A DNA stretch of 64,000 bases from Microbacterium sp. zg-B185 (lineage in GTDB: Bacteria > Actinomycetota > Actinomycetes > Actinomycetales > Microbacteriaceae). The stretch spans positions 186,001 through 250,000 of the forward strand of contig NZ_CP126739.1 of assembly GCF_030246885.1 (NCBI RefSeq). The letters are read 5' to 3'. The position numbers and the translations under genes are program-made. The notes beneath the pieces were generated by a model. That model was given only the letters and a program-made list of their open reading frames with translations, did no database searches and was not told the origin of the DNA. How positions within the stretch are numbered: the first letter of the stretch is position 1; each line of letters begins with the position of its first letter. This document shows positions 9,187-63,637 of this stretch, piece after piece.

Positions 9187-10710
9187 ATGAGCACTACGCC
9201 TGCGCCTGCCGACGCGAACGAGCCGACCGAGGAGGACGTCTTCGAGCAGAAGGCCGTGCGACTGGCCAAGCGCGAGCGGCTGATCGCCGAACGGCCGGAT
9301 GCCGCGGGCGGCGCGTATCCGGTCGCCGTGCCGATCACCGACACCATCCCCGCGCTTCGCGCCCGTTTCGGCGAGCTGGAAGCCGGCGCCGAGACCGGTG
9401 TGACCGCGGCCGTCGCCGGTCGCGTGGTCTTCAGCCGCAACACCGGCAAGCTGTGCTTCGCCACGCTGCAGGCCGGAGACGGCAGTCGCATCCAGGCGAT
9501 GGTCTCGCTCGCCGGCGTAGGCGAGGAGTCGCTGCAGCGCTGGAAGGACCTGGTCGACCTGGGCGACCACGTCTTCGTGCGCGGTGAGGTCATCTCCAGC
9601 CGTCGCGGCGAGCTGTCCATCATGGTGTCGGACTGGCAGATCGCCGCCAAGGCGATCCTGCCCCTGCCCAACATGTACAGCGAGCTCTCCGAGGAGAGCC
9701 GCGTGCGCAGCCGGTACCTGGATCTGATCGTGCGCGACCGGGCACGGGAGACGGTGCGGGCGCGCGCGAAGGTCAACGCGTCCCTGCGCCAGACGTTCAC
9801 CGACCGCGGCTACATCGAGGTCGAGACGCCGATGCTGCAGGTCCAGCACGGCGGCGCATCTGCCCGCCCCTTCGTGACCCACTCGAACGCGTTCGACACC
9901 GAGCTGTACCTGCGCATCGCTCCGGAGCTGTTCCTCAAGCGCGCCGTCGTCGGCGGGCTCGACCGGGTGTTCGAGATCAACCGCAACTTCCGCAACGAGG
10001 GAGCGGACTCCACCCACAGTCCGGAGTTCGCGATGCTCGAGTCCTACGAGGCGTACTCCGACTACAACGGCATCGCCGACCTGACGCAGGACCTCGTCCA
10101 GAACGCGGCTGTGGCCGTGGCCGGCTCCACCACCGTCACCTGGGCGGACGGGACCGAGTACGACCTCGGCGGCCAGTGGGACCGCATCTCGATGTACGAC
10201 TCGCTGTCGGCGGCATCCGGTGTTCCGATCACGCCCCAGACCTCGGTCGAGGACCTCCGGGCGCTCGTGGCCCGCGAGGGCATCGAGGAGCCGCCGCTGG
10301 CCACGCACGGCAAGCTCGTCGAGGAGCTGTGGGAGCATTTCGTCAAGCCCGGCCTGGTGCGTCCGACCTTCGTCATGGACTTCCCGCTGGACACCAGCCC
10401 GCTGGTGCGCGAGCACCGCTCGATCCCGGGCGTGGTGGAGAAGTGGGACCTTTACGTCCGCGGTTTCGAACTTGCGACCGGTTACTCGGAGCTCGTCGAT
10501 CCCGTCATCCAGCGCGAGCGGTTCACCGAGCAGGCCAAGCTCGCCGCACGCGGTGACGTGGAAGCCATGCGCGTGGACGAGGAGTTCCTCCGCGCTCTCG
10601 AGCACGGGATGCCGCCGTCGGGCGGCCTGGGGATGGGCATCGACCGTCTGCTGATGGCGATCACCGGTCTCGGCATCCGCGAGACGATCCTCTTCCCGCT
10701 GGTGAAGTAG
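9187..10710 (+). CDS. lysS: lysyl-tRNA synthetase, class II
   Basis: The enzyme charges tRNA-Lys in the cytoplasm. The 507-residue protein has an N-terminal OB-fold anticodon-binding domain (about residues 60-165), then the class II core with motif 1 around YIEVETPML, motif 2 FRNEGADSTHSPEF with its ATP-binding arginine, and motif 3 GGLGMGIDRLLM near the C-terminus. The ATG at 9187 has CGAGGAG at the right distance. The first 20 residues are Ala/Glu/Pro-rich and probably disordered. Length is normal. Confidence 0.96.
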   Translation: MSTTPAPADANEPTEEDVFEQKAVRLAKRERLIAERPDAAGGAYPVAVPITDTIPALRARFGELEAGAETGVTAAVAGRVVFSRNTGKLCFATLQAGDGSRIQAMVSLAGVGEESLQRWKDLVDLGDHVFVRGEVISSRRGELSIMVSDWQIAAKAILPLPNMYSELSEESRVRSRYLDLIVRDRARETVRARAKVNASLRQTFTDRGYIEVETPMLQVQHGGASARPFVTHSNAFDTELYLRIAPELFLKRAVVGGLDRVFEINRNFRNEGADSTHSPEFAMLESYEAYSDYNGIADLTQDLVQNAAVAVAGSTTVTWADGTEYDLGGQWDRISMYDSLSAASGVPITPQTSVEDLRALVAREGIEEPPLATHGKLVEELWEHFVKPGLVRPTFVMDFPLDTSPLVREHRSIPGVVEKWDLYVRGFELATGYSELVDPVIQRERFTEQAKLAARGDVEAMRVDEEFLRALEHGMPPSGGLGMGIDRLLMAITGLGIRETILFPLVK

Positions 10711-52867: not shown

Positions 52868-53328
52868 ATGATCAGACGTCTGGGACGTGTGGCGGCGACC
52901 TCGGCTGTTATGGCGATGCTCGGGACTGTCGTCGGCTGTGCTCGGCGTCGCTGATCGCCACCGTCCAGTCGCAGGGCTTCAATGGCGCGCGGAGCATGAA
53001 CGCCAGCGGCGGCGTCTTCGCGACGCTCTCGCTGCCGAATGCTACCGGGACCGGCTCGCGCATCGGCTGGAACAACGCGGCCGCCACGCTGACGCGGCCG
53101 GCACGGAGGCTTTCGCAGGCTTCTACACGGCAGGTACGCTAGATGTACCCGGCTGACGTTCTCATTCCCGCTGGGTGCGGACGTGCCGTGCGACACGACA
53201 CGACCGGTTCGCTGGCCGCCACCGGAGGGGCCGCACCCGTTGACGTGCTCTGGCTGGGACTCGGGATGCTGCTGTTCGGCGCCGGCGTATATGTGCTGTG
53301 CCTGCAACGACCTTCCGTGAAGGGCTGA
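52868..53328 (+). pseudogene. decayed sortase-anchored HtaA-domain surface protein
   Basis: Pieces of one protein lie in order in different frames. A signal-peptide-like start MIRRLGRVAATSAVMAMLGTVVG is in frame 2, then GVFATLSLPNATGTGSRIGWNNAAATLT in frame 1, GTEAFAGFYTAGT in frame 3, LTFSFPLGADVPCDTT in frame 2, and finally SLAATGGAAPVDVLWLGLGMLLFGAGVYVL followed by a basic tail in frame 1. The middle matches the end of an HtaA (heme-binding surface) domain, and LAATG plus a hydrophobic segment is a class E sortase signal. At least four frameshifts and a large loss in the middle make it a pseudogene. Confidence 0.65.
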
Positions 53329-53541
53329 CGGTCAGGGAATCCGCCACACCGATCGGAGAGCTCATGGCTCTTGCCAGTCGACTCGTCAAGCCCGTTGCGC
53401 AGGAACTCCTGCACCTGACCGTGCTGCGCACCGAGCGACTCTCTCGCCGCACTGGATGCGAATTGCCCTCCGCAGCGGCGATATCGCCAGGGTGTAGCTG
53501 GTCTGGAGTGGCGTCGCTCGGTCGAGCCGCGCCCGCAGGCG

Positions 53542-54936
53542 TTACGACGTCGGGGGGAAGGGATCGTCGGCGAGCCGGATGGTGCGGAACCCTCGCGTTT
53601 CGAGGCGGGCACGGTTTGCCTCATTCAGTCTCAGCAGCGCGAGTGCGATGCCGGATGCTCCGACCTGATGGCCAACTTCTGCCTTGAGTGTTCCTATCGG
53701 GAGGACATGCGATTCGCTGTACCAACGCCTGCCCCGGTCGTCGACGACGGAGCGAATCAGAAGGTCGTCAGCTTGTGCATTTGCCGCCTCGAGCCACAGC
53801 GGGTCACCGGTTTCCAGCCAGAGTCCGATGAAGGACTCGAGTATGGCGGCCGAGCCACAGCACTGGTGGTGTACCCAGGTGTTGCCCGGTGTCTGTCTGC
53901 CAGGGACACCGCTTCGCAGGATGCCGCGGCCCAGCCGCAGCGCCCATTCCAGGTAGATCCCCGCTCCCGTCGCGCGATAGACCTGCACGAAGGAGCGAAT
54001 CGCGCCGGAGCTGCCGGTGCAGTATCCGAAGGAGTAGGTATCCCCGATCCGTGCGACTACCGCGGCGTCTCCGACGAGGATCGCTGTAGCGGCGATGTGG
54101 TCCGCGGCGCGTGCAGCAGCATCCTGGAAGCGGTGATCGCCTGTCGCGATGGCCAACGTGGCGAACACGAATGCGATGCCGACGGTGCCGAGTTCGAACC
54201 CGTCGAGTTCCTGACCTGCGGGCAGACCGAGCAACTGTGCATCGAGACCGCGCCACCAGGATCCGTGCTCATCGTGGAGTTCCTCTGCGAGGATGCCCAG
54301 TCCCGCCGCGATCGCCGTGTCCAAATATCTGCTCTGCTCGAGTCTTCGTGCCGCTTCGACGAGGCCGATGATCGGGCCACCGTCGCCGAGAAGTGCATTT
54401 GCTCCAGTCCAACCGAACGAGCGCCCGCCGTTCTCGCCGGCACGGGACGCGATCTCGTCGAAGATGGCGATCGCGGTGGCTTTGTGCTCCGGGAACCGTT
54501 CACTGAGTTCAAGGAAGACACCGCCCACTCCGGCGAGCCCGCCGTAGTGCCCGAACCCGGTACCGGGGACGCCGAGGAAATCGGTCTCTGGCAGTGTCCT
54601 CCAGTTGTCCGCCACGTAGGCCGCGGCTCGCTGTGCTCGTGCGACGTGTGCGGCGTGTGCGGCGTCTCCGCTCGCGTCGGCTGCCGCGAGTGAGTACCAG
54701 GCTATTCCTGCCGCGCCGGTGTTGAGACTGACCGCACCGTAGACCGGCGTGAATCCGGGCTGGTCCGGCCAGGCGTGCCAGCGACTCGATCGCTCGTCCA
54801 CCGGCTCTTCGGCCGAGTCGATCCACTGCTGGACTTGCGCGAGCGCCTCGGGAATGTCCGGCAAGGATGTCCCCGGGAACGGGGCGCCGAGCATCTCTGG
54901 GCGCAGGGTGGGGATGGTGACCTGGGGAAGACTCAT
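53542..54936 (-). CDS. LanC-like protein coupled to a peptide ABC importer
   Basis: The 464-residue cytoplasmic protein has the repeated Gly motifs of the LanC alpha-toroid: NTGAAGIAWYSL, GHYGGLAGVGGVFLEL, ANALLGDGGPIIGLVEA, ELGTVGIAFVFATLA, YCTGSSGAIRSFVQVYRATG, QCCGSAAILESFIGLWLETG and VGASGIALALLRL. The usual zinc ligands of LanC are Cys, Cys and His (WCYG and CHG); here Cys306 and Cys359 fit the first two, but the third position is Cys360. So the metal site may be kept as Cys3. No lanthipeptide precursor or dehydratase is near. The gene overlaps the ATPase stop by ATGA and is the last gene of the importer operon. Confidence 0.72.
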   Translation of the reverse strand: MSLPQVTIPTLRPEMLGAPFPGTSLPDIPEALAQVQQWIDSAEEPVDERSSRWHAWPDQPGFTPVYGAVSLNTGAAGIAWYSLAAADASGDAAHAAHVARAQRAAAYVADNWRTLPETDFLGVPGTGFGHYGGLAGVGGVFLELSERFPEHKATAIAIFDEIASRAGENGGRSFGWTGANALLGDGGPIIGLVEAARRLEQSRYLDTAIAAGLGILAEELHDEHGSWWRGLDAQLLGLPAGQELDGFELGTVGIAFVFATLAIATGDHRFQDAAARAADHIAATAILVGDAAVVARIGDTYSFGYCTGSSGAIRSFVQVYRATGAGIYLEWALRLGRGILRSGVPGRQTPGNTWVHHQCCGSAAILESFIGLWLETGDPLWLEAANAQADDLLIRSVVDDRGRRWYSESHVLPIGTLKAEVGHQVGASGIALALLRLNEANRARLETRGFRTIRLADDPFPPTS

Positions 54937-56582
54937 TGCCGAATTCCTTGTGTCGTGGCTTCTGGGATGGGCAGGGCGCTTAGGAGCTCCTGTGTGTAAG
55001 AGTGCTGTGGGTCGGTGAAGACCGCTTCGGTCGACCCGCGCTCGACGACGACACCGTCGCGCATGACCAGTACTTCATCGCTCACGTGTCGGATGACGCC
55101 CAGGTCGTGAGAGATGAACACCGTTGACAGTCCGAGCTCGGTTTGGATGTCGGCGAAGAGGTCGAGGACTTGCGCCTGAATGGATACGTCGAGTGCTGAC
55201 ACCGGTTCGTCGCACAACAGCACCCGGGGATTTCTTGCGAGGGCGCGTGCGATCGCCACGCGTTGGCGTTGCCCTCCGGACAGCGCGAACGGCAACCGCC
55301 TCAAAAGGTCGGGAGCGAGTCCCACCTGGTCGGCGAGTTGCACGGCTCGCTCGCGGCGATCGGCGCGCGGAACTCCGCTGAGCGCGAGGGATTCTTGAAG
55401 GATGGATCCCGCGGTGAGCCTGGGGTCGAACGAGCTCAGCGGGTCCTGATAGACGGCTTGAATGCTGTGGCGGCGGCTTCGGCGGGCTCGCTCGGCAACG
55501 TGACTCCATTGTTGTTCGTCGAGGAATACTTCGCCTGCATCGGGTTGCTGCAGTCCGAGGATGATCCGCCCGAGCGTCGTCTTGCCTGAGCCCGATTCCC
55601 CAACGATTCCGACCGTGCGCCCCTCGGTGAGCTCGAACGAAACGTCGTCGACGGCGCGGATTTGGGCACCGCTCGGTTGGCGGAAGCTTTTGCTCACACC
55701 CCTCACCGAGAGCACCGTGCGCTCTGGGTCGATGACCGCCGCTGCCAGGGTCGCTTCTGGGCGGGGAAGGGTACTGAGCCGCGCGCCCTTCTTATGCAGG
55801 CTCGGCGTGGCATTGAGGAGTGCGCGGGTGTACTCGTGTTCTGGCTCACCGAGCACGATGGACGTGGCGCCGGTCTCCACAATGTGCCCGCCACGCATGA
55901 CCGCAATGCGATCGGCGATCCGTGCCACCACCGCGAGATCGTGACTGATGAGCAGGATTCCTGCACCGTTCCCCTTCAGGCGAGCAAGCAGGTCGAGCAC
56001 CTGGCTCTGCACGCGCAGGTCAAGTGCGGTGGTTGGTTCGTCCGCGATCAGCAGCCGGGGCCGCGCGATCGTCGCCGCGGCGATGAGCGCCCGCTGTCGA
56101 AGGCCACCCGAAAGTTCGTGAGCGTGTTGTTTCGATCGCTCGCGCGGCGAAGGGATGGCTACGCGAGCCAGTTCCTCGACAACCGCGGACGCGAGAGCGT
56201 CATGCGAAAGCTGCTGCCGCTCGCGCCGCGAGTGCACCCGCAAGACTTCTCCCACTTCTCTGCCGATGGTGCGAAGAGGATCGAGAGACACGAGGGCGTC
56301 CTGGGCCACCAGCCCGACCTGACGGCCTCGAAGATCTCGCCATCGGCTTTCATCGAACGCGCGAGTGTCGGTGCCCGCGACGTCAAGTCGATCAGCGGAG
56401 ACAACACCCGGGGACGGCACAAGTCCGAGCAGTGACCGTGAGGTCAGAGTCTTCCCAGAGCCAGACTCCCCAACTAGGGCGAGACATTCGCCGGCGCGAA
56501 CCTCGAAGCTCACCCCGTCAACGACCGTGGCGCCGCCGAAGCTGATGCGCAAACCTTCGACGTTCACGAGGAGGTCACTCAT
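54933..56582 (-). CDS. fused double ATP-binding protein of a peptide ABC importer (DppDF-like)
   Basis: The 549-residue protein carries two complete ATPase domains. The first has Walker A GESGSGKT at residues 38-45, signature ELSGGLRQRALIA and Walker B LLIADEPT; the second has GESGSGKTT, signature ALSGGQRQRVAIA and Walker B VLLCDEPVSALDVS. It thus combines the DppD and DppF subunits in one chain, as often seen in actinobacteria. The start at 56582 overlaps the permease stop (ATGA), and the stop overlaps the LanC-like start. Confidence 0.93.
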   Translation of the reverse strand: MSDLLVNVEGLRISFGGATVVDGVSFEVRAGECLALVGESGSGKTLTSRSLLGLVPSPGVVSADRLDVAGTDTRAFDESRWRDLRGRQVGLVAQDALVSLDPLRTIGREVGEVLRVHSRRERQQLSHDALASAVVEELARVAIPSPRERSKQHAHELSGGLRQRALIAAATIARPRLLIADEPTTALDLRVQSQVLDLLARLKGNGAGILLISHDLAVVARIADRIAVMRGGHIVETGATSIVLGEPEHEYTRALLNATPSLHKKGARLSTLPRPEATLAAAVIDPERTVLSVRGVSKSFRQPSGAQIRAVDDVSFELTEGRTVGIVGESGSGKTTLGRIILGLQQPDAGEVFLDEQQWSHVAERARRSRRHSIQAVYQDPLSSFDPRLTAGSILQESLALSGVPRADRRERAVQLADQVGLAPDLLRRLPFALSGGQRQRVAIARALARNPRVLLCDEPVSALDVSIQAQVLDLFADIQTELGLSTVFISHDLGVIRHVSDEVLVMRDGVVVERGSTEAVFTDPQHSYTQELLSALPIPEATTQGIRQ

Positions 56583-57445
56583 CGCAGTCGTCCCTCGAAC
56601 CGGCGTTGAAGATAGCGTCCCACCACGGTCGTGGAGATGACGGTGACGGTGATCGCAAGTCCCGGGAAGACCGCGATCCACCACGCCGAGCCGAGGGAGC
56701 TTCTGCCGTCCGAGAGCATGAGGCCCCACTCAGGGGTGGGCGAAACGGGCCCGAGCCCTAAGAAGCTCAGACTCGAACCGGCGATGATCGAGGTGCCGAT
56801 CCCGATGGTCGCAAGCACCAGGAGGGGGCCCACGACATTCGGCAGCACATGGCGCGTCACGATCGCGGCCGGGCGTTGACCAAGGGCGACGGCTGCTTCG
56901 ACGAACGCGGATGTCTTGACCTGCAAGGTGGTGATCCGTACGATGCGCGCGTAGGCGGGCACCGCGGCGATGGTGATGGCGACGATGACGTTCACCGCGC
57001 CCGGCCCCAGGAGCGCGATAACCACCAGCGCAACGAGCAGCTCGGGAAAGGCGAGCGCGATCTCGAGCACGCGCATGGCGATGTTGTCCACGGCCCGGGG
57101 GGCAAGGCCCGCGGTAAGGCCGATCGCGACTCCGCCGATGAGCGCAAGGATCGTGGCTGAGAACCCGAACGACAATGACAAGCCCGCGCCGTACACCACG
57201 CGGGTGTAGACGTCGCGTCCGAGTTTGTCGGTGCCGAACAGGTGTTCTGCAGATGGCGGGAGCTGAGAGTCCGCCGTCGCGGTGGCGAGCGGGTCGGCCG
57301 ACGTGAAGATCCAGGGGAAGAGCGCCGCAACGATGAGCACGAGCAGCACCGCGGCGGCCAGTATCGCCCCGATCGGCTTCGGGCGCCCCGACCGCTCGGG
57401 CACAGCGATGGCCGCTTCTACGAGTTCTGGCGTGCCGATGCTCAT
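56579..57445 (-). CDS. peptide ABC importer, permease (DppC-like)
   Basis: The 288-residue protein has an N-terminal membrane helix, the OppC-N region with HLFGTDKLGRDVYTRVVYGAGLSLSFGF and the EAA loop EAAVALGQRPAAIVTRHVLPNVVGPLLV, with five to six helices in all. It forms the channel together with the next permease. Both ends overlap neighbours by ATGA, so the operon is fully coupled. Confidence 0.92.
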   Translation of the reverse strand: MSIGTPELVEAAIAVPERSGRPKPIGAILAAAVLLVLIVAALFPWIFTSADPLATATADSQLPPSAEHLFGTDKLGRDVYTRVVYGAGLSLSFGFSATILALIGGVAIGLTAGLAPRAVDNIAMRVLEIALAFPELLVALVVIALLGPGAVNVIVAITIAAVPAYARIVRITTLQVKTSAFVEAAVALGQRPAAIVTRHVLPNVVGPLLVLATIGIGTSIIAGSSLSFLGLGPVSPTPEWGLMLSDGRSSLGSAWWIAVFPGLAITVTVISTTVVGRYLQRRFEGRLR

Positions 57446-58401
57446 CGGGCTCCTCTGAGTCTCGGGTCCAGGAGCGGGGCTACCGCATCAACAATGAGAT
57501 TCACGACGACAAACACGAGCGCTGCGAAGATGACGATCGCCATGACTATCGGGATGTCGCGGTTGTTGATGGCTTCGAGCGTCACGCGCCCGATGCCGGG
57601 CCTACCGAAGAGCTGTTCGATGATCACCGCCCCGCCCAGAAGGCTCCCCACGATGTATGCGGCCAGCGTGACTGCGGGCAGCGCCGCGTGTCGCAGTGTG
57701 TGCCGAGCGAGCAACTGGGAGAAGCTCAACCCGCGCGCCCGCGAGGAGTCAACGAATGGCTGCGTCTCGGTTCCCTCCAGGCCGTGCCGGAGAACTTGGC
57801 TGAGGATGCCGGCGATCGGAAGAGCCAGGGTCAGCGCGGGAAGAACGAGCGCGTTCAATCCTTGTCCGCCGGAGATCGGGAACCAGTGAAGCTGGAACGA
57901 GAACACCGTCAACAAGAGTAGGCCGGTCCAGAACGTCGGTGAGGAGATGGCGATCAACTCGACGAGGGAGGCGACGGCCCGTGCCACTCGACCCCTCGCG
58001 GCAAGGGATATGCCTAACGCGAGCACCACGGCGAAGACGATGGACAGTCCGGCCAGCTGAAGGGTGGGCATGATCTGCTCGCCGATGACATCTATCACCG
58101 GCTTCTGGAGTCGGTAGGACATGCCGAATTCGCCCGTGACGAGCTTGCCGAGATATCCGACGTACTGCAGAAGGACCGGTTGAGTCAGGCCGAGCTCTTC
58201 CCGAATGTTCTGGCGCACCCCTTCGCTGACTTGGGATTGCACGCCGAGCATGATGTCCACAGGGTCGCCCGGCACGATGTGCAGCACGAGGAATGCGAGG
58301 GAGGACGCGCCCCACACGACGATGAACGCGCCGACGAGCCGGGGCAGGTACAGCGCGAATGCTGCACCTACCCGGCCGCGTAGCACTACAGGTTGCGTCA
58401 A
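57442..58401 (-). CDS. peptide ABC importer, permease (DppB-like)
   Basis: The protein of about 319 residues has the family opening LPRLVGAFIVVWGASSLAFLVLHIVPGDPVD, six membrane helices and the EAA loop SRARGLSFSQLLARHTLRHAALPAVTL. I start at a TTG at 58401 because it overlaps the stop of the solute-binding protein (TTGA) in the same way as the other junctions; an ATG at 58440 in the same frame would overlap that gene by 43 bases. Confidence 0.9.
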   Translation of the reverse strand: MTQPVVLRGRVGAAFALYLPRLVGAFIVVWGASSLAFLVLHIVPGDPVDIMLGVQSQVSEGVRQNIREELGLTQPVLLQYVGYLGKLVTGEFGMSYRLQKPVIDVIGEQIMPTLQLAGLSIVFAVVLALGISLAARGRVARAVASLVELIAISSPTFWTGLLLLTVFSFQLHWFPISGGQGLNALVLPALTLALPIAGILSQVLRHGLEGTETQPFVDSSRARGLSFSQLLARHTLRHAALPAVTLAAYIVGSLLGGAVIIEQLFGRPGIGRVTLEAINNRDIPIVMAIVIFAALVFVVVNLIVDAVAPLLDPRLRGAR

Positions 58402-60047
58402 GGTTGCCTGCTTGTCCAGGCGTCGTACAGCAGCGGCCAACCCGTGATGTCAGCACGTACGCCACCGATCGTCGAAGAGACGCCGATGATATGGCTCGGT
58501 ACGTAGATCGGCACGATCGCAGCGTCCTCGATCGCCCAATGTTGCACCTCGCTGTAGATCTTCTTCCGCTCGTCGGGATCGGTGGATTCCGATGCCGTCA
58601 CGAGCAGATCATCGAGCTCAGGATCGTTCACGAACGATGCGTTCTGGACGGGAGCGAACCCCGAGTAGAGGTGGAGCCGCAAGATGTCGCCTTCGGGCCG
58701 CACGAAGCTCCAATCGGCGATGTCGTACGTTCCGCCGTAAAGGCTCTCAATGTACGCGCCACCGTCAAGAGGGTTGGGGTTGAGCTCGAAGCCGATCTTC
58801 TTCAAGTCGGCCTGGAACGCGTCGATGAGGCTCTTGCGGTCCTCACGCGGTGCCGAATAGGAGGGCCACTCTGCGCTCAGGCGCACCCCGTCTTTGGTTC
58901 GGTAGTCATCCGTGTCCCGCTCGGTCCACCCAGCATCGTCGAGAAGCTGGTTCGCGAGATCCTCGTCGTACTCCCAGCTGCCCTCGACGGTCGGGTCATA
59001 GGCGTTGGGCGTGGTGGGGCCGAGTACACTCCATGCGCGATCGTATTCGCCGCCGTACACAGCGGTCACTGCAGAGCCGATGTCGATGCCCTGCTGGAAC
59101 GCCTGGCGCACGAGTTTGTCCTGGAACACGCCCTTGGAATGGTTGAGGAAGATCGAGTAGGGGAGGCCCGGTGTACCGGTTCCAGTGACCGAGACCGTGC
59201 CGTCCACCTCCAGGGCGGGGACATCGTTGGGTGAAACGTTGCTGGCCACATCCACCTCGCCGCTCGTGAGCGCCCCGGCCCGCACGGCGTTCTCCGGCAG
59301 GATCCGGTAGACCAGTTCGTCCGGGTGTGCCGCGCCGGAGTGTGTGGCGTTGGCCGGGCCCCAGTTGTAGTCCGGGTTCTTGGTGAGAGTGATGTCCTGG
59401 CCCGCCACGACGCTCTCCAGGATGAAGGGGCCGGTGCCGACCGTGATGCCGGGGCCGCCAGCGATGAGCTTGTCCGGGCTCTCTTCAAGCACCTTGGGTG
59501 AGTAAAACCCGAGGTAGGCCGTGCTTGCACCCTGGAGGAAAGGGGCGAACGGGCGGGTGAAGCTCACCTTCACGGTGTCAGCGTCGACCGCCTCGGTGCC
59601 TGCGTACGCGTCGCCACCGAGGAGAGCCGCCGCATACTGGGAGGCCGTCTCCGGGTCGGCGATGTGATCGAAGTTGGCCTTGACCGCGTCGGCGTTGAAC
59701 GGCTCGCCGTCGCTGAACGTCACGTCTTCCTTGAGCTGGAAGGTGTACTCCAGGCCGTCGTCGCTGACCTCCCACGACTCGGCGAGCCACGGCTGAATCG
59801 AGCCGTCCGTGTCCTGCACGACGAGAGAATCGAAGACGTTCCGCAAGACCAGTGCGGAGATGTCTGCAGCAGTGACGTGGATGTCGAACTGCGAGCTCGG
59901 GTCGCCATCGATGGCGACAGTAATCGTGCCGCCCTCAACGGGATTGTCGGTGGCTGGTCCTGCGCCCGCCGTGCTGCAGCCGGCGAGGATCAGGGCGGCG
60001 CCGGCCAGTATCGCCAGCACGCCGCCCTTTCTGTGGTGGGACGTCAT
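58398..60047 (-). CDS. peptide ABC importer, solute-binding lipoprotein (SBP family 5)
   Basis: The 549-residue extracellular protein has a lipoprotein signal peptide (HHRKGGVLAILAGAALILAGC) and the family 5 fold: PWLAESWEVSDDGLEYTFQLKEDVTFSDGEPFNADAVKANFDHI, VRQAFQQGIDIGSAVTAVYGG and LLDDAGWTERDTDDYRTKDG. It catches oligopeptides or similar solutes outside the membrane and hands them to the permeases. GAAGGA lies 5 bases before the ATG. First gene of the five-gene operon, divergent from a TetR gene. Confidence 0.93.
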   Translation of the reverse strand: MTSHHRKGGVLAILAGAALILAGCSTAGAGPATDNPVEGGTITVAIDGDPSSQFDIHVTAADISALVLRNVFDSLVVQDTDGSIQPWLAESWEVSDDGLEYTFQLKEDVTFSDGEPFNADAVKANFDHIADPETASQYAAALLGGDAYAGTEAVDADTVKVSFTRPFAPFLQGASTAYLGFYSPKVLEESPDKLIAGGPGITVGTGPFILESVVAGQDITLTKNPDYNWGPANATHSGAAHPDELVYRILPENAVRAGALTSGEVDVASNVSPNDVPALEVDGTVSVTGTGTPGLPYSIFLNHSKGVFQDKLVRQAFQQGIDIGSAVTAVYGGEYDRAWSVLGPTTPNAYDPTVEGSWEYDEDLANQLLDDAGWTERDTDDYRTKDGVRLSAEWPSYSAPREDRKSLIDAFQADLKKIGFELNPNPLDGGAYIESLYGGTYDIADWSFVRPEGDILRLHLYSGFAPVQNASFVNDPELDDLLVTASESTDPDERKKIYSEVQHWAIEDAAIVPIYVPSHIIGVSSTIGGVRADITGWPLLYDAWTSRQP

Positions 60048-60093
60048 CGTGTTCCTTCGGGAAGAGGAAAGGGCAAATGGGACCGCGGTTCAC

Positions 60094-60107
60094 CGCCACG
60101 AGTGGCG
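60094..60107. promoter_or_regulatory. possible operator in the tetR/importer gap
   Basis: CGCCAC-GA-GTGGCG is a perfect 14-base palindrome between the divergent importer operon and the TetR gene, 47 bases upstream of the lipoprotein start. Confidence 0.45.
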
Positions 60108-60229
60108 CAGATCCGGCTCTGTGAGAGTAAATGCGCGACGGAATGCGCCGCTCGAAAGTGACCGCGTGTGTCAGATAGATGGACGCGCGCAAGACCAAGT
60201 CCAACAATCGGGGAAGGAGTGTGGACTCA

Positions 60230-60850
60230 ATGCATGACCAACCGACGCTGCCAGGCCGCCCTCGAGCGAGCACACGATCAGCGATCTCTGCGACCGCCCT
60301 ACGGCTGTTCAGCACACATGGATTCGCCAGCACCACGGTCGAACAGATCGCAACCGCGGCCGGGATCAGCCGGTCCACATTTTTCAACTACTTCTCGTCC
60401 AAAGCGGAGACCATTTGGAACTGCCAGGAGCATCAGCTGGCGGCGCTCGAGACGGATCTGGCAACGGCCGACGATGGCGACCCGTTCGAGATCGCAACCC
60501 GAGCGGTCGTGGGCGTGGCTTCCGATGTCGGGCCGGTAGCGGCGGAGCCGACCCGATCCTACGGTGCTCTCATAGCGAGTTCGCCGACTCTCGCACTGGA
60601 GTCGGCAACCTGGCCAGCCCGACGCGCCGTCCTGGTCGGGCGATACATAGCACGACGATTGGGGCTGAGCGACGACGACCTCCTCGCTCAGTCGTACGCT
60701 CACGCGCTGAACGGCGCAATCAGCGCAGCGGCGATCAACTTCGGCAACTCACGAGGTCGCCGACTCAGCGACATCCTTGCCGAGTCGACGACCCCCGTAC
60801 AAGAAGGATTCTCGAACGCATGGCGCACCGCGCACCCGATCGGGGTCTAA
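60230..60850 (+). CDS. TetR-family regulator divergent from the peptide importer
   Basis: The protein of about 206 residues has a helix-turn-helix RSAISATALRLFSTHGFASTTVEQIATAAGISRSTFFNYFSSKAETIW and a helical ligand domain. It starts at ATG 60230 with GGAAGGAG 10 bases upstream; an in-frame GTG at 60221 and an ATG at 60179 are alternatives. Position and palindrome suggest that it controls the importer-LanC operon. The ligand is unknown. Confidence 0.82.
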   Translation: MHDQPTLPGRPRASTRSAISATALRLFSTHGFASTTVEQIATAAGISRSTFFNYFSSKAETIWNCQEHQLAALETDLATADDGDPFEIATRAVVGVASDVGPVAAEPTRSYGALIASSPTLALESATWPARRAVLVGRYIARRLGLSDDDLLAQSYAHALNGAISAAAINFGNSRGRRLSDILAESTTPVQEGFSNAWRTAHPIGV

Positions 60851-60973: not shown

Positions 60974-62029
60974 CTACCAGGGTTTGGCGACTTCGGCGTG
61001 TGTGAGCAGGATGCCCTCGGTCGTGCCCGCAGGAGCGCGTCCGATGCCGCACTCTGTGCCGACACCGAATCGCTCGACGAACTCGTACGCTGCGGCCGCG
61101 CGCCGCTGTGCGCCGGCCGTGCCATCCTCGCGGTGCACGAGACCGAGGTAGAGCTCGGTTTCCTCGGGCAGTTCGAGCGATGCGAGCGGGGCGAAGTACT
61201 CAGCGTCGTCTCGCTCGATCGGGACGGGCAGGTGCAGCCAGTCGATACGACGTGGGGATGCCGAGACCACGGCGTTCGCGAAGCGGACGAGGTTCGCGGC
61301 ATCCGCCGGCTGGGCGAAGTGCTGCTCGTTGGCGTCGCCATAGCAGAAGTGAAATCCGAGCTCGATATCTTCGGGGATGATGGCTGCCTGTTCCCCGGCT
61401 CGAGCAACCAGGCCCGCCCATACGTCCGCCCACCACGCGGTGACCGCGCCTCCGAAGTCTGGGCCGTAGCCCTTGGATTCGATGATCTGGAACTCCACAG
61501 CGACATCCCACTGGATCGCCAGGTCTTTATGAGGGATCGCGTCGACGATCTCTTCAATCTCCCGATACAGCGCGTCCCGGTACACGGGTTCAATCGCGGC
61601 CCTCTGGTCGGCGGGGAAGAAGCATCCCACGACCGCCGCAGGCGTCGGCACCGACACCTGGAAGCGCACGCCCTCGGCTACGACGCCCTCATCTCGCAGG
61701 CGGCGGAAGATCGCGTACGATTCCCGCGCCGCTGACGCGTAACCCAGGGGCGGCAACGCGATTGAGGCGGGGTCGATTCCGTCCGACACCCGGACGAATC
61801 GCGCGTCTACTGGGCCGAGCCAGATCGGCTCGTCGCCGACGCGTTCGATGCCCTCGGCCTGGCCGAGCACGTCGCCTTGGAACATGATCCAGTGGTAACG
61901 CTTGCCGACCTCGCCATCGGGAATGCGCTTGAGCTGCGGGCCGAGAACCTCGGCAGCGGTGCGGATAGTGGTCTCGGCGTCGTCGTAGTTGACGCTGCCC
62001 ACCAGAAGGGCGCCTTGTGGCTGTGTCAT
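60974..62029 (-). CDS. MetE/UROD-like protein of unknown function
   Basis: The 351-residue protein resembles the barrel domain of cobalamin-independent methionine synthase and uroporphyrinogen decarboxylase: GSVNYDDAETTIRTAAEVLGPQLKRIPDGEVGKRYHWIMFQ at the start, VQWD-like AIQWDVAVEF in the middle, GFHFCYGDANEQHF and DWLHLPVPIERDDAEYFAPL. It is shorter than MetE and lacks the MetE C-terminal zinc motif in recognisable form. His and Cys in FHFCYGD might bind a metal. It lies beside the TetR gene, on the importer strand. Perhaps thiol or methyl transfer chemistry linked to the imported compound; that is inference. Confidence 0.6.
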   Translation of the reverse strand: MTQPQGALLVGSVNYDDAETTIRTAAEVLGPQLKRIPDGEVGKRYHWIMFQGDVLGQAEGIERVGDEPIWLGPVDARFVRVSDGIDPASIALPPLGYASAARESYAIFRRLRDEGVVAEGVRFQVSVPTPAAVVGCFFPADQRAAIEPVYRDALYREIEEIVDAIPHKDLAIQWDVAVEFQIIESKGYGPDFGGAVTAWWADVWAGLVARAGEQAAIIPEDIELGFHFCYGDANEQHFAQPADAANLVRFANAVVSASPRRIDWLHLPVPIERDDAEYFAPLASLELPEETELYLGLVHREDGTAGAQRRAAAAYEFVERFGVGTECGIGRAPAGTTEGILLTHAEVAKPW

Positions 62030-62185: not shown

Positions 62186-62440
62186 CTTAACAATCGCGAC
62201 AACCCGGGTACAGATCGGCTCGACCCCGGCATCGCCGCGCTCGCGGAGGGCGACAACCACGCTGTCCGCTCGGCGATGGAGCGAGATACGGCGTCACCGC
62301 GGGTTCCGCGGGCTTGGCAGCGGAAGCACAGCTCCCCTGGGAGGAGGCATATGCGTGCCAACGGCTGGCCGAATCCCTCCTGCGCGGCGCGGGGGGTGCG
62401 CGTCGCCTCGGCGGTGCCCGCACCGCGATCCTTGGGTTAA
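62186..62440 (+). pseudogene. possible remnant of a TPR/LuxR-type regulator, cut by IS30
   Basis: A short stretch PGIAALAEGDNHAVRSAMERDTA in one frame and AAEAQLPWEEAYACQRLAESLLRGAGGARRLGGARTAIL in the next frame resemble the alpha-helical repeats of large LuxR regulators. The pieces stop exactly at the left inverted repeat of the IS30 element. The evidence is limited to pattern similarity. The 412-base gap holds nothing else I can recognise. Confidence 0.3.
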
Positions 62441-62441
62441 T

Positions 62442-63637
62442 GCGGTGGTTGCAACACCTCGAGAGATGGTGTGCTGTGGCGATGTATTCACTTCGTATTC
62501 GGCCTGACTTGCTCCAGGTGTTCTGGGTGGGGATGCAGGCGGGTGATTCTCTGACCGACGCGGTGCTCCCGCTCGGCGTCGATCGCAGGACCGGGGCGCG
62601 GATTCTGGTCGCTGCCGGCGGTGTCAGACCACGCCGCGGCCGTGATCTCAAGGGGCGGTGTTTGACGTTCGCCGACCGGGAAGAGATCGCGGTCCTGCGG
62701 GCGCCGGGGAACTCATTGCGGCAGATCGCGGCGGCGATCGGGAGAGCGGCATCGACAGTGTCGAGGGAGCTGTCCAGGAACACCGCCCGTGGGTCGGCGT
62801 ATCGTGCGAGGACCGCGCATGTCCTGGCGTATGAGCGTGCGTCGCGGCCGAAGCCAGCCAAGCTCCATGTGAACCTCGAGCTGCGTGCGAAGGTGGAGCG
62901 GGACCTTCGCAAGAAGTACTCGCCCGAGCAGATCTCGGGGCGCCTGAAACGGGAGTTCCCCGGCCGGGAGGAGATGCGGGTGTCGCCCGAGACGATCTAC
63001 CAGTCTCTCTACGTGCAGTCTCGGGGCGCGCTCAAGCAAGAGCTGACCAGGCATCTCCGGACCGGGAGGGCTTTGCGGAGCCCGTCGCGCAAGACCTGGC
63101 AGCGTAAGAACCGGATCCCGAACATGATCAACATCTCCGAGCGTCCCGCGCAGGCTAGCGACCGGGCCGTGCCGGGCAGCTGGGAGGGTGATCTGATCAT
63201 CGGGAAAGGCAACCTGTCAGCGATCGGCACGCTCGTCGAACGCTCCAGCAACTACACGATGCTGGTGGCCCTACCCGATGGATACAAGCCGGAGCAGGTC
63301 GCATCGGCGTTGACCCGGAAGATCCAGCAGCTTCCTGAGCAGCTGCGGGTCGCGTTGACCTGGGATCAGGGACCCGAGATGCGGGACTGGGAGAAAGTCC
63401 GCATCGACACCGGGATCGAGATCTTCTTCTGCGACCCGAAGTCGCCGTGGCAACGCGGCATCAACGAAAACACGAATGGGCTGCTGCGCCAATACTTCCC
63501 GAAAGGCACCGAGCTGGCCGGGTTCAGCGAGGAACACCTCGACGCCGTCGCCGCGGAACTGAACGACCGACCCCGCAAACGACTAGAGTTCCAAACCCCG
63601 ATCGAAGTCATCGGGAATGTCCTGTTGCAATGACCGC
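62442..63637 (+). mobile_element. IS30-family insertion sequence
   Basis: The inverted repeats GCGGTGGTTGCAACA (62442-62456) and TGTTGCAATGACCGC (63623-63637) match with two mismatches and enclose one transposase gene. The right repeat overlaps the end of the gene. No target duplication is clear; IS30 elements make only 2-3 bp ones. It lies at the end of the remnant of a helical-repeat gene. Confidence 0.8.
62482..63633 (+). CDS. IS30-family transposase
   Basis: The 383-residue protein has an N-terminal helix-turn-helix (LTFADREEIAVLRAPGNSLRQIAAAIGRAASTVSRELSRN), KKYSPEQISGRL, and the rve core with catalytic residues in WEGDLIIGKG, TWDQGPEM and INENTNGLLRQYFPKG. I choose the ATG at 62482 since it is the first good start inside the inverted repeat; the frame continues upstream into the remnant. 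All key residues are present, so it may be functional. Confidence 0.9.
   Translation: MYSLRIRPDLLQVFWVGMQAGDSLTDAVLPLGVDRRTGARILVAAGGVRPRRGRDLKGRCLTFADREEIAVLRAPGNSLRQIAAAIGRAASTVSRELSRNTARGSAYRARTAHVLAYERASRPKPAKLHVNLELRAKVERDLRKKYSPEQISGRLKREFPGREEMRVSPETIYQSLYVQSRGALKQELTRHLRTGRALRSPSRKTWQRKNRIPNMINISERPAQASDRAVPGSWEGDLIIGKGNLSAIGTLVERSSNYTMLVALPDGYKPEQVASALTRKIQQLPEQLRVALTWDQGPEMRDWEKVRIDTGIEIFFCDPKSPWQRGINENTNGLLRQYFPKGTELAGFSEEHLDAVAAELNDRPRKRLEFQTPIEVIGNVLLQ

Follow-up and report, generated by a model that had tools for sequence, protein, structure and literature searches.

A stand-alone LanC-like protein encoded in a family-5 importer operon of Microbacterium sp. zg-B185, possibly for the uptake and processing of an organosulfur compound

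The LANC_like protein family (PF05147) is known from the lanthipeptide cyclases, i.e., LanC (such as NisC) and the corresponding domains of LanM, LanKC, and LanL, and from LanCL1 and LanCL2, which add glutathione to dehydroamino acids as stand-alone proteins, without ring closure being needed. Zinc-ligand motifs in this family read C-x-G and (C)C/H-G, and the zinc site of LanCL1 is Cys-Cys-His. In LanC enzymes, a histidine has been described to serve as the acid in protonation of the enolate, with LanCL1 having His219 and His277 (accessible sections of PMC9934072). After the filtering applied in a genome-mining study, 1392 LanC-like proteins stayed unclassified; some of these lie in clusters with ATP-binding cassette (ABC) transporters and proteases, and an uncharacterised class of ribosomally synthesised and post-translationally modified peptides (RiPPs) was suggested (accessible sections of PMC7268733). 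The subject of the present analysis is a LanC-like gene of Microbacterium sp. zg-B185, located in an operon with a family-5 (Opp/Dpp) ABC importer on a stretch of 64,000 nucleotides (contig NZ_CP126739.1, positions 186,001 to 250,000; referred to as the window). This operon may serve to import and process an organosulfur compound. It is composed as follows:

53542-60047, minus strand: whole operon, five genes (open reading frame (ORF) calls and Pfam)
58398-60047, minus strand: family-5 ABC solute-binding lipoprotein (SBP_bac_5, PF00496, E 3e-83; ATG start at 60047)
57442-58401, minus strand: DppB-type permease (PF00528; Opp2B 275 bits, cut-off 350)
56579-57445, minus strand: DppC-type permease (PF00528; Opp2C 243 bits, cut-off 300)
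54933-56582, minus strand: fused DppDF ATPase with two ABC_tran domains (PF00005 in two stretches, plus oligo_HPY)
53542-54936, minus strand: stand-alone LanC-like protein of 464 aa (PF05147 LANC_like, 46 bits, cut-off 23.2)

All five genes of the original prediction were found in place on the minus strand, each with Pfam matches, and the importer is complete (i.e., SBP_bac_5, two BPD_transp_1 permeases, and two ABC ATPase domains). The prediction also joined the five genes by 4-base overlaps, which holds firmly for the three ATGA stop-start overlaps read from the sequence at DppB/DppC, DppC/DppDF, and DppDF/LanC. The junction between the solute-binding protein (SBP) and DppB is a possible but weaker TTGA overlap that requires a TTG start, the start of DppB being uncertain (a TTG at 58401 overlaps the SBP stop, and a longer ORF begins at a TTG at 58440). 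Neither the SBP nor the two permeases reached any NCBIfam model above its own cut-off, the best model for the SBP being TIGR04028 (271 bits vs. a cut-off of 468.5). The closest PDB chains of the SBP were 5u4o and NikA (4oer); reading its substrate from solved relatives was given up and no ligand was assigned, since these matches are a mixture of nickel-, heme-, dipeptide-, and oligopeptide-binding chains.

The same five genes recur in the same order in three other Actinomycetota, which places this order above chance:

L011: Rhodoglobus metagenome-assembled genome (MAG), same gene order, LanC identity 70%
L012 (same contig as G656): MAG of the window's own genus, same gene order, LanC identity 69%
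L013: Propionibacteriaceae MAG, same gene order, LanC identity 53%

Judged from coordinates, the 4-base overlaps at DppB/DppC and DppDF/LanC are kept in all three (with the LanC start of L013 taken to be the ATG at 10001, where the profile match begins), and L013 has a 10-base gap at SBP/DppB instead of an overlap. Among more distant relatives, SBP, DppB, and DppDF genes and a 42% identical LanC-like gene lie within one stretch of G1408 (L055), and a 37% identical relative in Bifidobacterium amazonense is split, one part lying on contig L014 together with a DppDF gene and the other on contig L015.

Importer association extends beyond these operons. Within 10 kb, importer parts were present in 18 of the 31 loci counted, i.e., the window, L011, L012, L013, L014/L015, L055-L060, L062-L066, L072, and L096; this survey is descriptive, since some of its queries were taken from these very loci. 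One split gene each was assumed for L014/L015 and for L039/L040, as judged from contig ends, whereas second copies and the 702-1107 aa frames of L067, L071, L073, L034, and L035 (which have LanC-type matches and by their length are probably multi-domain enzymes) were left out. In L014/L015, the family-5 SBP (SBP5) gene is found at 8.9 kb in L015 and DppDF in L014, while L058 and L060 have permeases without a binding protein. Three importer types occur beside stand-alone LanC-like relatives: Opp/Dpp, an amino-acid type with a family-3 SBP (SBP3; adjoining L056, L057, L059, and L064), and an SsuABC-like type. The latter was found in Nonomuraea gerenzanensis (L096), where genes for an SsuABC-like SBP, permease, and ATPase immediately precede the LanC-like gene, in the same orientation; their best NCBIfam models are those for aliphatic sulfonates, with all three scoring below cut-off. 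The L096 record (NZ_LT559118.1), an 11.85-Mb entry, is listed as a plasmid and carries a total of ten annotated features. The plasmid collection held two records, and that of Mesobacillus had no importer or sulfur-amino-acid enzyme gene of the type described below within 10 kb.

Whether this association exceeds expectation was examined in ten Bifidobacteriaceae genomes (27.3 Mb), which were picked for their LanC-like genes and not for the neighbours of these. Pfam counting yielded 68 SBP5 and 69 SBP3 genes over cut-off, and 13 LanC-like genes were tested (two G1132 pieces, from B. amazonense, being left out of 15 places). An SBP5 or SBP3 gene lay within 5 kb of 8 of these 13 genes (expected frequency ca. 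0.06 each; P 1.6e-7) and within 10 kb of 10 of them (P 3.7e-8), both P values being too small by some amount because several of the genomes are related and share similar loci. These counts replaced an earlier control test, which had found importers in 12 of 15 loci (L027, L038, L055-L066, and L072) vs. 1 of 20 random stretches (P 6e-6) and was biased because some of its queries had been drawn from the loci under test; its 20 controls were hand-placed in genomes carrying LanC-like genes, and the window, L011-L015, L028, L037, L039-L041, and L068-L070 were omitted. The predicted link between LanC-like gene and importer is thus borne out by the conserved order in relatives and by the excess in the ten genomes. 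A peptide, as also predicted, is one possible substrate only, since related LanC-like genes adjoin amino-acid-type and sulfonate-type importers as well.

By sequence profile, the window protein is LanC-like, as originally proposed. Its PF05147 score is about twice the cut-off, and of 8000 candidates that were scored, 853 reached E 1e-30 or better. Two profiles were compared with PDB, i.e., A1 (of 31 relatives) and A2 (of 15 relatives). The matches of A1 were led by LanCL2 (E 2.7e-12) and LanCL1 (3e-9), followed by NisC (9e-5) and a GH76 mannanase chain (7e-4), with no chain named GH127 among the 22 matches listed up to E 10; those of A2 were led by 8car and LanCL2, with several GH76 chains at 1e-4 to 7e-4. 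LANC_like matched all 31 A1 and all 15 A2 members at E 0.001 (best E 5e-18 and 6e-28, respectively). In NCBIfam, the window protein matched the LanM, LanL, and LanKC models (LanM at 63 bits vs. a cut-off of 304). As to the possibility, raised at the outset, that such proteins are structurally unrelated to LanC, the profiles favour LanC, although GH127 and GH76 toroids are matched weakly as well.

The motif cysteines, C306 and C359-C360-G361, were present at each site in 198 of 198 scored sequences (199 rows were aligned, two of which are halves of one split gene). C306 aligns with the WC of LanCL proteins in the comparison of A1 with PDB, and the CCG of the A2 profile aligns with that of 8car, a chain in which a LanC domain is fused to a kinase. 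We take C306, C359, and C360 to be the zinc ligands, by motif, and this CCG three-cysteine site to be of the ProcM type. Unlike LanCL1 with its two histidines, the window protein has Leu249, Thr307, and a Cys-Cys-Cys set. As the three cysteines are intact, the thiol chemistry put forward in the original prediction appears plausible. In one relative (G1747:C12:28981-30375; L098, L100), the LanC-like profile match crosses one in-frame TGA.

The proton-donating histidine has a different fate. In the alignment of A1 with LanCL2 (domain 1), Leu249 aligns with this histidine of LanCL proteins, and Glu248 is adjacent. None of the 55 sequences of the close set carries the enolate-protonating His (NisC His212, LanCL1 His219), and all 55 have a Glu at 248 or 249. 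Across the 198 scored sequences, His249 occurred in 90, Glu at 248/249 in 101, neither in 7, and both in 0, in what is a non-random sample with many near-copies (120 of the wide group being the best rows of the 853); thinning at 80% identity (n = 100) left 21 with His, 73 with Glu, 6 with neither, and 0 with both. A quick tree placed the window protein in a 37-row clade that is entirely Glu-type (SH-aLRT, an approximate likelihood-ratio branch support, of 100), with N. gerenzanensis less firmly as the sister of this clade (85), and required six changes for the Glu state, at least three of which are forced by starred branches. A second Glu-type clade, of 29 rows (P0060-P0116 and others), is known from protein-database rows alone. 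The register of these positions is supported by relatives that carry His exactly at 249 within an SHG motif, by the spacing 249-306-359 vs. 673-729-775 (AHG, FCQG, and CCG, counted by hand) in 8car, and by the CCG-to-CCG alignment with that chain. Glu248/249 is a possible substitute for the lost His. Because the latter is absent, the window protein should not simply be termed a lanthionine-forming cyclase; it further differs from lanthipeptide cyclases in standing alone in an importer operon and in having no precursor found with it.

A further line of evidence comes from sulfur metabolism. Pyridoxal phosphate (PLP) enzymes of sulfur-amino-acid metabolism were located within 10 kb in 6 of the 31 loci, three of which also had importers. 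These were cysteine-synthase-like proteins near L027, L038, and L099, O-acetylhomoserine (OAH)-sulfhydrylase-like proteins near L057 and L060, and a cystathionine-lyase-like protein near L059; these assignments are putative, since none of the scanned proteins reaches the cut-off of its best-matching NCBIfam model. In the ten Bifidobacteriaceae genomes, where 51 strong PF01053 matches were counted of 109 listed, a strong PF01053 gene lay within 2.5 kb of 3 of the 13 LanC-like genes (P 6e-4). Moreover, an SsuA-family binding protein is encoded downstream of LanC in L011 (219 bits vs. a cut-off of 163.5), L059 has a weaker SsuA-family protein, and L056 has a Sulf_transp protein. The PLP neighbours lend weaker support to a sulfur role than the importers do to uptake. 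GlcD-like flavin (FAD) oxidases were also seen near the LanC-like genes of L014, L055, and L057, and in the B. amazonense locus L014 encodes an aminotransferase plus a DUF1684 protein, and L015 an iron alcohol dehydrogenase; neighbours of the L014/L015 type may possibly form a degradation cluster.

That many relatives are positioned beside importers or cysteine-metabolism genes points away from antibiotic production and towards a role in handling a compound that is imported and may contain sulfur. An importer that is co-made with a cytosolic enzyme usually serves uptake followed by processing, and we tentatively prefer, with somewhat less than even confidence, to read the operon as an import-and-process module for an organosulfur compound. 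The family-5 importer would take up an organosulfur compound that resembles a peptide or an amino acid, and the LanC-like protein, made in step with it, would bind zinc via its three cysteines and act as a zinc-thiolate enzyme on a C-S bond of that compound, which is the likely target because the cysteines of the zinc-thiolate site have been kept. Given the PLP and sulfonate neighbours, the favoured direction is the opening of a thioether for sulfur salvage, presumably by a retro-thia-Michael step, with the conserved Glu, which occupies or adjoins the former His position, possibly doing the proton transfer and the released thiol feeding sulfur-amino-acid metabolism. Such a reverse has precedent in that the LanC reaction is treated, with reference to earlier work, as having a retro-Michael counterpart (accessible sections of PMC9934072). 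Of the originally predicted import followed by thiol or thioether chemistry, the importer link stands and the intact cysteines keep the chemistry plausible, whereas the peptide substrate is one possibility only and the cyclase His is absent.

Several points weigh against this import-and-process reading, beyond the overstated P values mentioned above. Replacement of the corresponding His abolished the retro-Michael reaction (accessible sections of PMC9934072), so a His-less family may do other chemistry. The residue equivalences are less secure than usual because helical repeats let the alignment slip, and in one LanCL2 alignment HMMER does slip by one repeat. With the query set of the locus survey, no sulfur gene was found beside the window operon, L012, or L013, and the one sulfur neighbour found in the window's own family is the SsuA-family importer gene of L011. 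The excess of PF01053 genes becomes weak at a distance of 10 kb (P 0.014), and sulfur PLP genes were present in 5 of 15 loci vs. 3 of 20 controls (P 0.19) in a BLAST comparison with biased queries. Finally, 10 of the 31 loci (L028, L037, L039/L040, L041, L061, L068, L069, L070, L095, and L100), several on short contigs, showed no importer parts and no sulfur PLP genes within 10 kb, and these include all five loci of the deep His-type clade (L028, L041, L068, L069, and L070).

Among other explanations, the LanC-like protein might be an alpha/alpha-toroid put to a new use, with a sugar or glycopeptide taken up by the importer as its substrate, comparable to the GH127 beta-L-arabinofuranosidases, which are alpha/alpha-toroids with zinc held by cysteines; we deem this unlikely. 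Family-5 importers also carry oligosaccharides, the GH127 catalytic domain weakly matches 22 of the 31 A1 members (best E 2.4e-7) and spans the CCG motif in L027, A2 members weakly match GH88, GH76, and epimerase families, and a few relatives have carbohydrate genes close by (GH1 for L095; others, judged by eye, for L099 and L013), in addition to the GH76 chains among the PDB matches of both profiles. Yet LANC_like matches every A1 and A2 member with better best E values, the PDB matches are led by LanCL2 and 8car, with no GH127-named chain among those listed, and the window protein itself has no PF07944 (GH127) match at E 0.001. GH127 moreover has a Glu two residues before the first zinc Cys, and the corresponding position is Gly304 in 31 of 31 relatives. 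Metal-chelate uptake by a nickel- or opine-like importer, with the LanC-like protein handling zinc or a metallophore, is very improbable: the SBP does match NikA-type chains and the best models for the permeases are the nickel models Opp2B and Opp2C, but both permeases fall below the cut-offs of these, and related LanC-like genes adjoin amino-acid-type and sulfonate-type importers. The ATPase exceeds some CntD, CntF, NikD, and NikE cut-offs, which are inapplicable because its score sums two ABC domains.

Two further explanations stay closer to known LanC chemistry. Addition of cysteine, mycothiol, or another thiol onto imported dehydroamino or electrophilic compounds, as LanCL1 does with glutathione, would be the forward reaction of the known family (accessible sections of PMC9934072), and fits the His-type relatives, which have His at both LanCL1 sites and three of which (L027, L038, and L099) have cysteine-synthase-like neighbours. 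It is nevertheless distinctly unlikely here, as it presupposes the import of an electrophile, of which there is no sign, and the His is missing in the window's family. Still a little less credible is an undescribed RiPP system, in which the LanC-like protein would modify a ribosomal peptide that is sensed or re-imported by the importer. The aforementioned mining study suggested such a class for some of its proteins (accessible sections of PMC7268733). The window's LanC-like family resembles that set in lying near ABC transporters without lanthipeptide markers, and it may belong to those 1392 proteins. However, the transporters here are importers, since they come with SBPs, and several neighbours are sulfur-amino-acid enzymes. 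In agreement with the original prediction, no precursor peptide emerged, as 207 small ORFs around four loci gave only weak matches at inconsistent places and no position-consistent candidate, and no LanB, kinase, or exporter domain was present among ten Pfam-scanned proteins (five from the operon and five from its surroundings; for LanB, no genome-wide search was made). That the own genome has a single LanC-domain gene, apart from a 58-residue fragment, speaks against LanM, LanKC, and LanL, and the absence of the enolate-protonating His from the window's family argues against RiPP modification.

The surroundings of the operon contain the following features:

60094-60107, strand not applicable: palindrome CGCCACGAGTGGCG (arms CGCCAC and GTGGCG around GA) between the SBP and TetR genes, candidate operator
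60179-60850, plus strand: divergent TetR-family regulator with MftR-like C-terminal domain (PF00440, PF17754)
60974-62029: 351-aa protein (termed MetE/UROD-like in the original prediction), no family match
62314-63633: transposase with HTH_38 and rve domains, near the operon at the low-G+C end of the window

The TetR gene assigned to this neighbourhood is real and divergent (TIGR03968, 125.9 bits vs. a cut-off of 224.9), but it is a neighbour in only one of the three relatives: a divergent TetR relative (52% identity) lies beside the L011 operon, and none was found beside those of L012 or L013. Likewise, the palindrome exists, as a single copy in the window, but was rejected as a conserved operator because neither its exact nor a relaxed core is present in the L011, L012, and L013 stretches. 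The MetE/UROD label had to be dropped, since the protein gave no match in Pfam (E to 0.5), NCBIfam (to 0.001), or PDB (E to 1), and the flanks of L011-L013 contain no homologue of it at E 1e-5.

The distribution of the LanC-like family is patchy. It was found in 2 of 366 genomes of the genus, and among 396 genomes drawn from the order a full-length match occurred in the own genome only and any match in 7; a genome-contig scan, from which the own genome may be excluded, yielded 5 loci in 4 genomes. The 52-64 kb segments have the lowest G+C of the window (0.648-0.651 vs. 0.666-0.718 in the other 13 segments), and the transposase, presumably IS30-like, lies in this part. In addition, 487 bp (53226-53712, covering the 3′ end of the LanC-like gene and downstream sequence) are repeated at 97% identity elsewhere in the own genome (L009 1182-1668, at ca. 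1.88 Mb). Low G+C, the nearby transposase, this repeat, and the patchy distribution together suggest that the operon was acquired horizontally. An ORF adjoining the second 487-bp copy resembles a resolvase by eye.

The importer association, the sulfur neighbours, and the His/Glu pattern offer a different reading of unclassified LanC-like proteins, i.e., that they may take part in organosulfur uptake and processing. Its broadest form, which we regard as rather doubtful, would be a large bacterial LanC-fold group (the 853 proteins mentioned above) that has moved from peptide antibiotics to nutrition, being coupled to importers and opening thioethers of imported amino acids or peptides (lanthionine-like compounds or S-conjugates) by a zinc-thiolate retro-Michael step, with the catalytic His replaced by a neighbouring Glu in several clades. 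No description of a catabolic role for the LanC fold was found in the accessible text of the open PMC literature, with subscription papers lying outside that search. If true, the import-and-process reading would add a nutritional role to a fold known for lanthipeptide making and animal glutathione addition, and would provide a candidate route to thioether sulfur for Bifidobacteriaceae and Coriobacteriia, some of which carry relatives.

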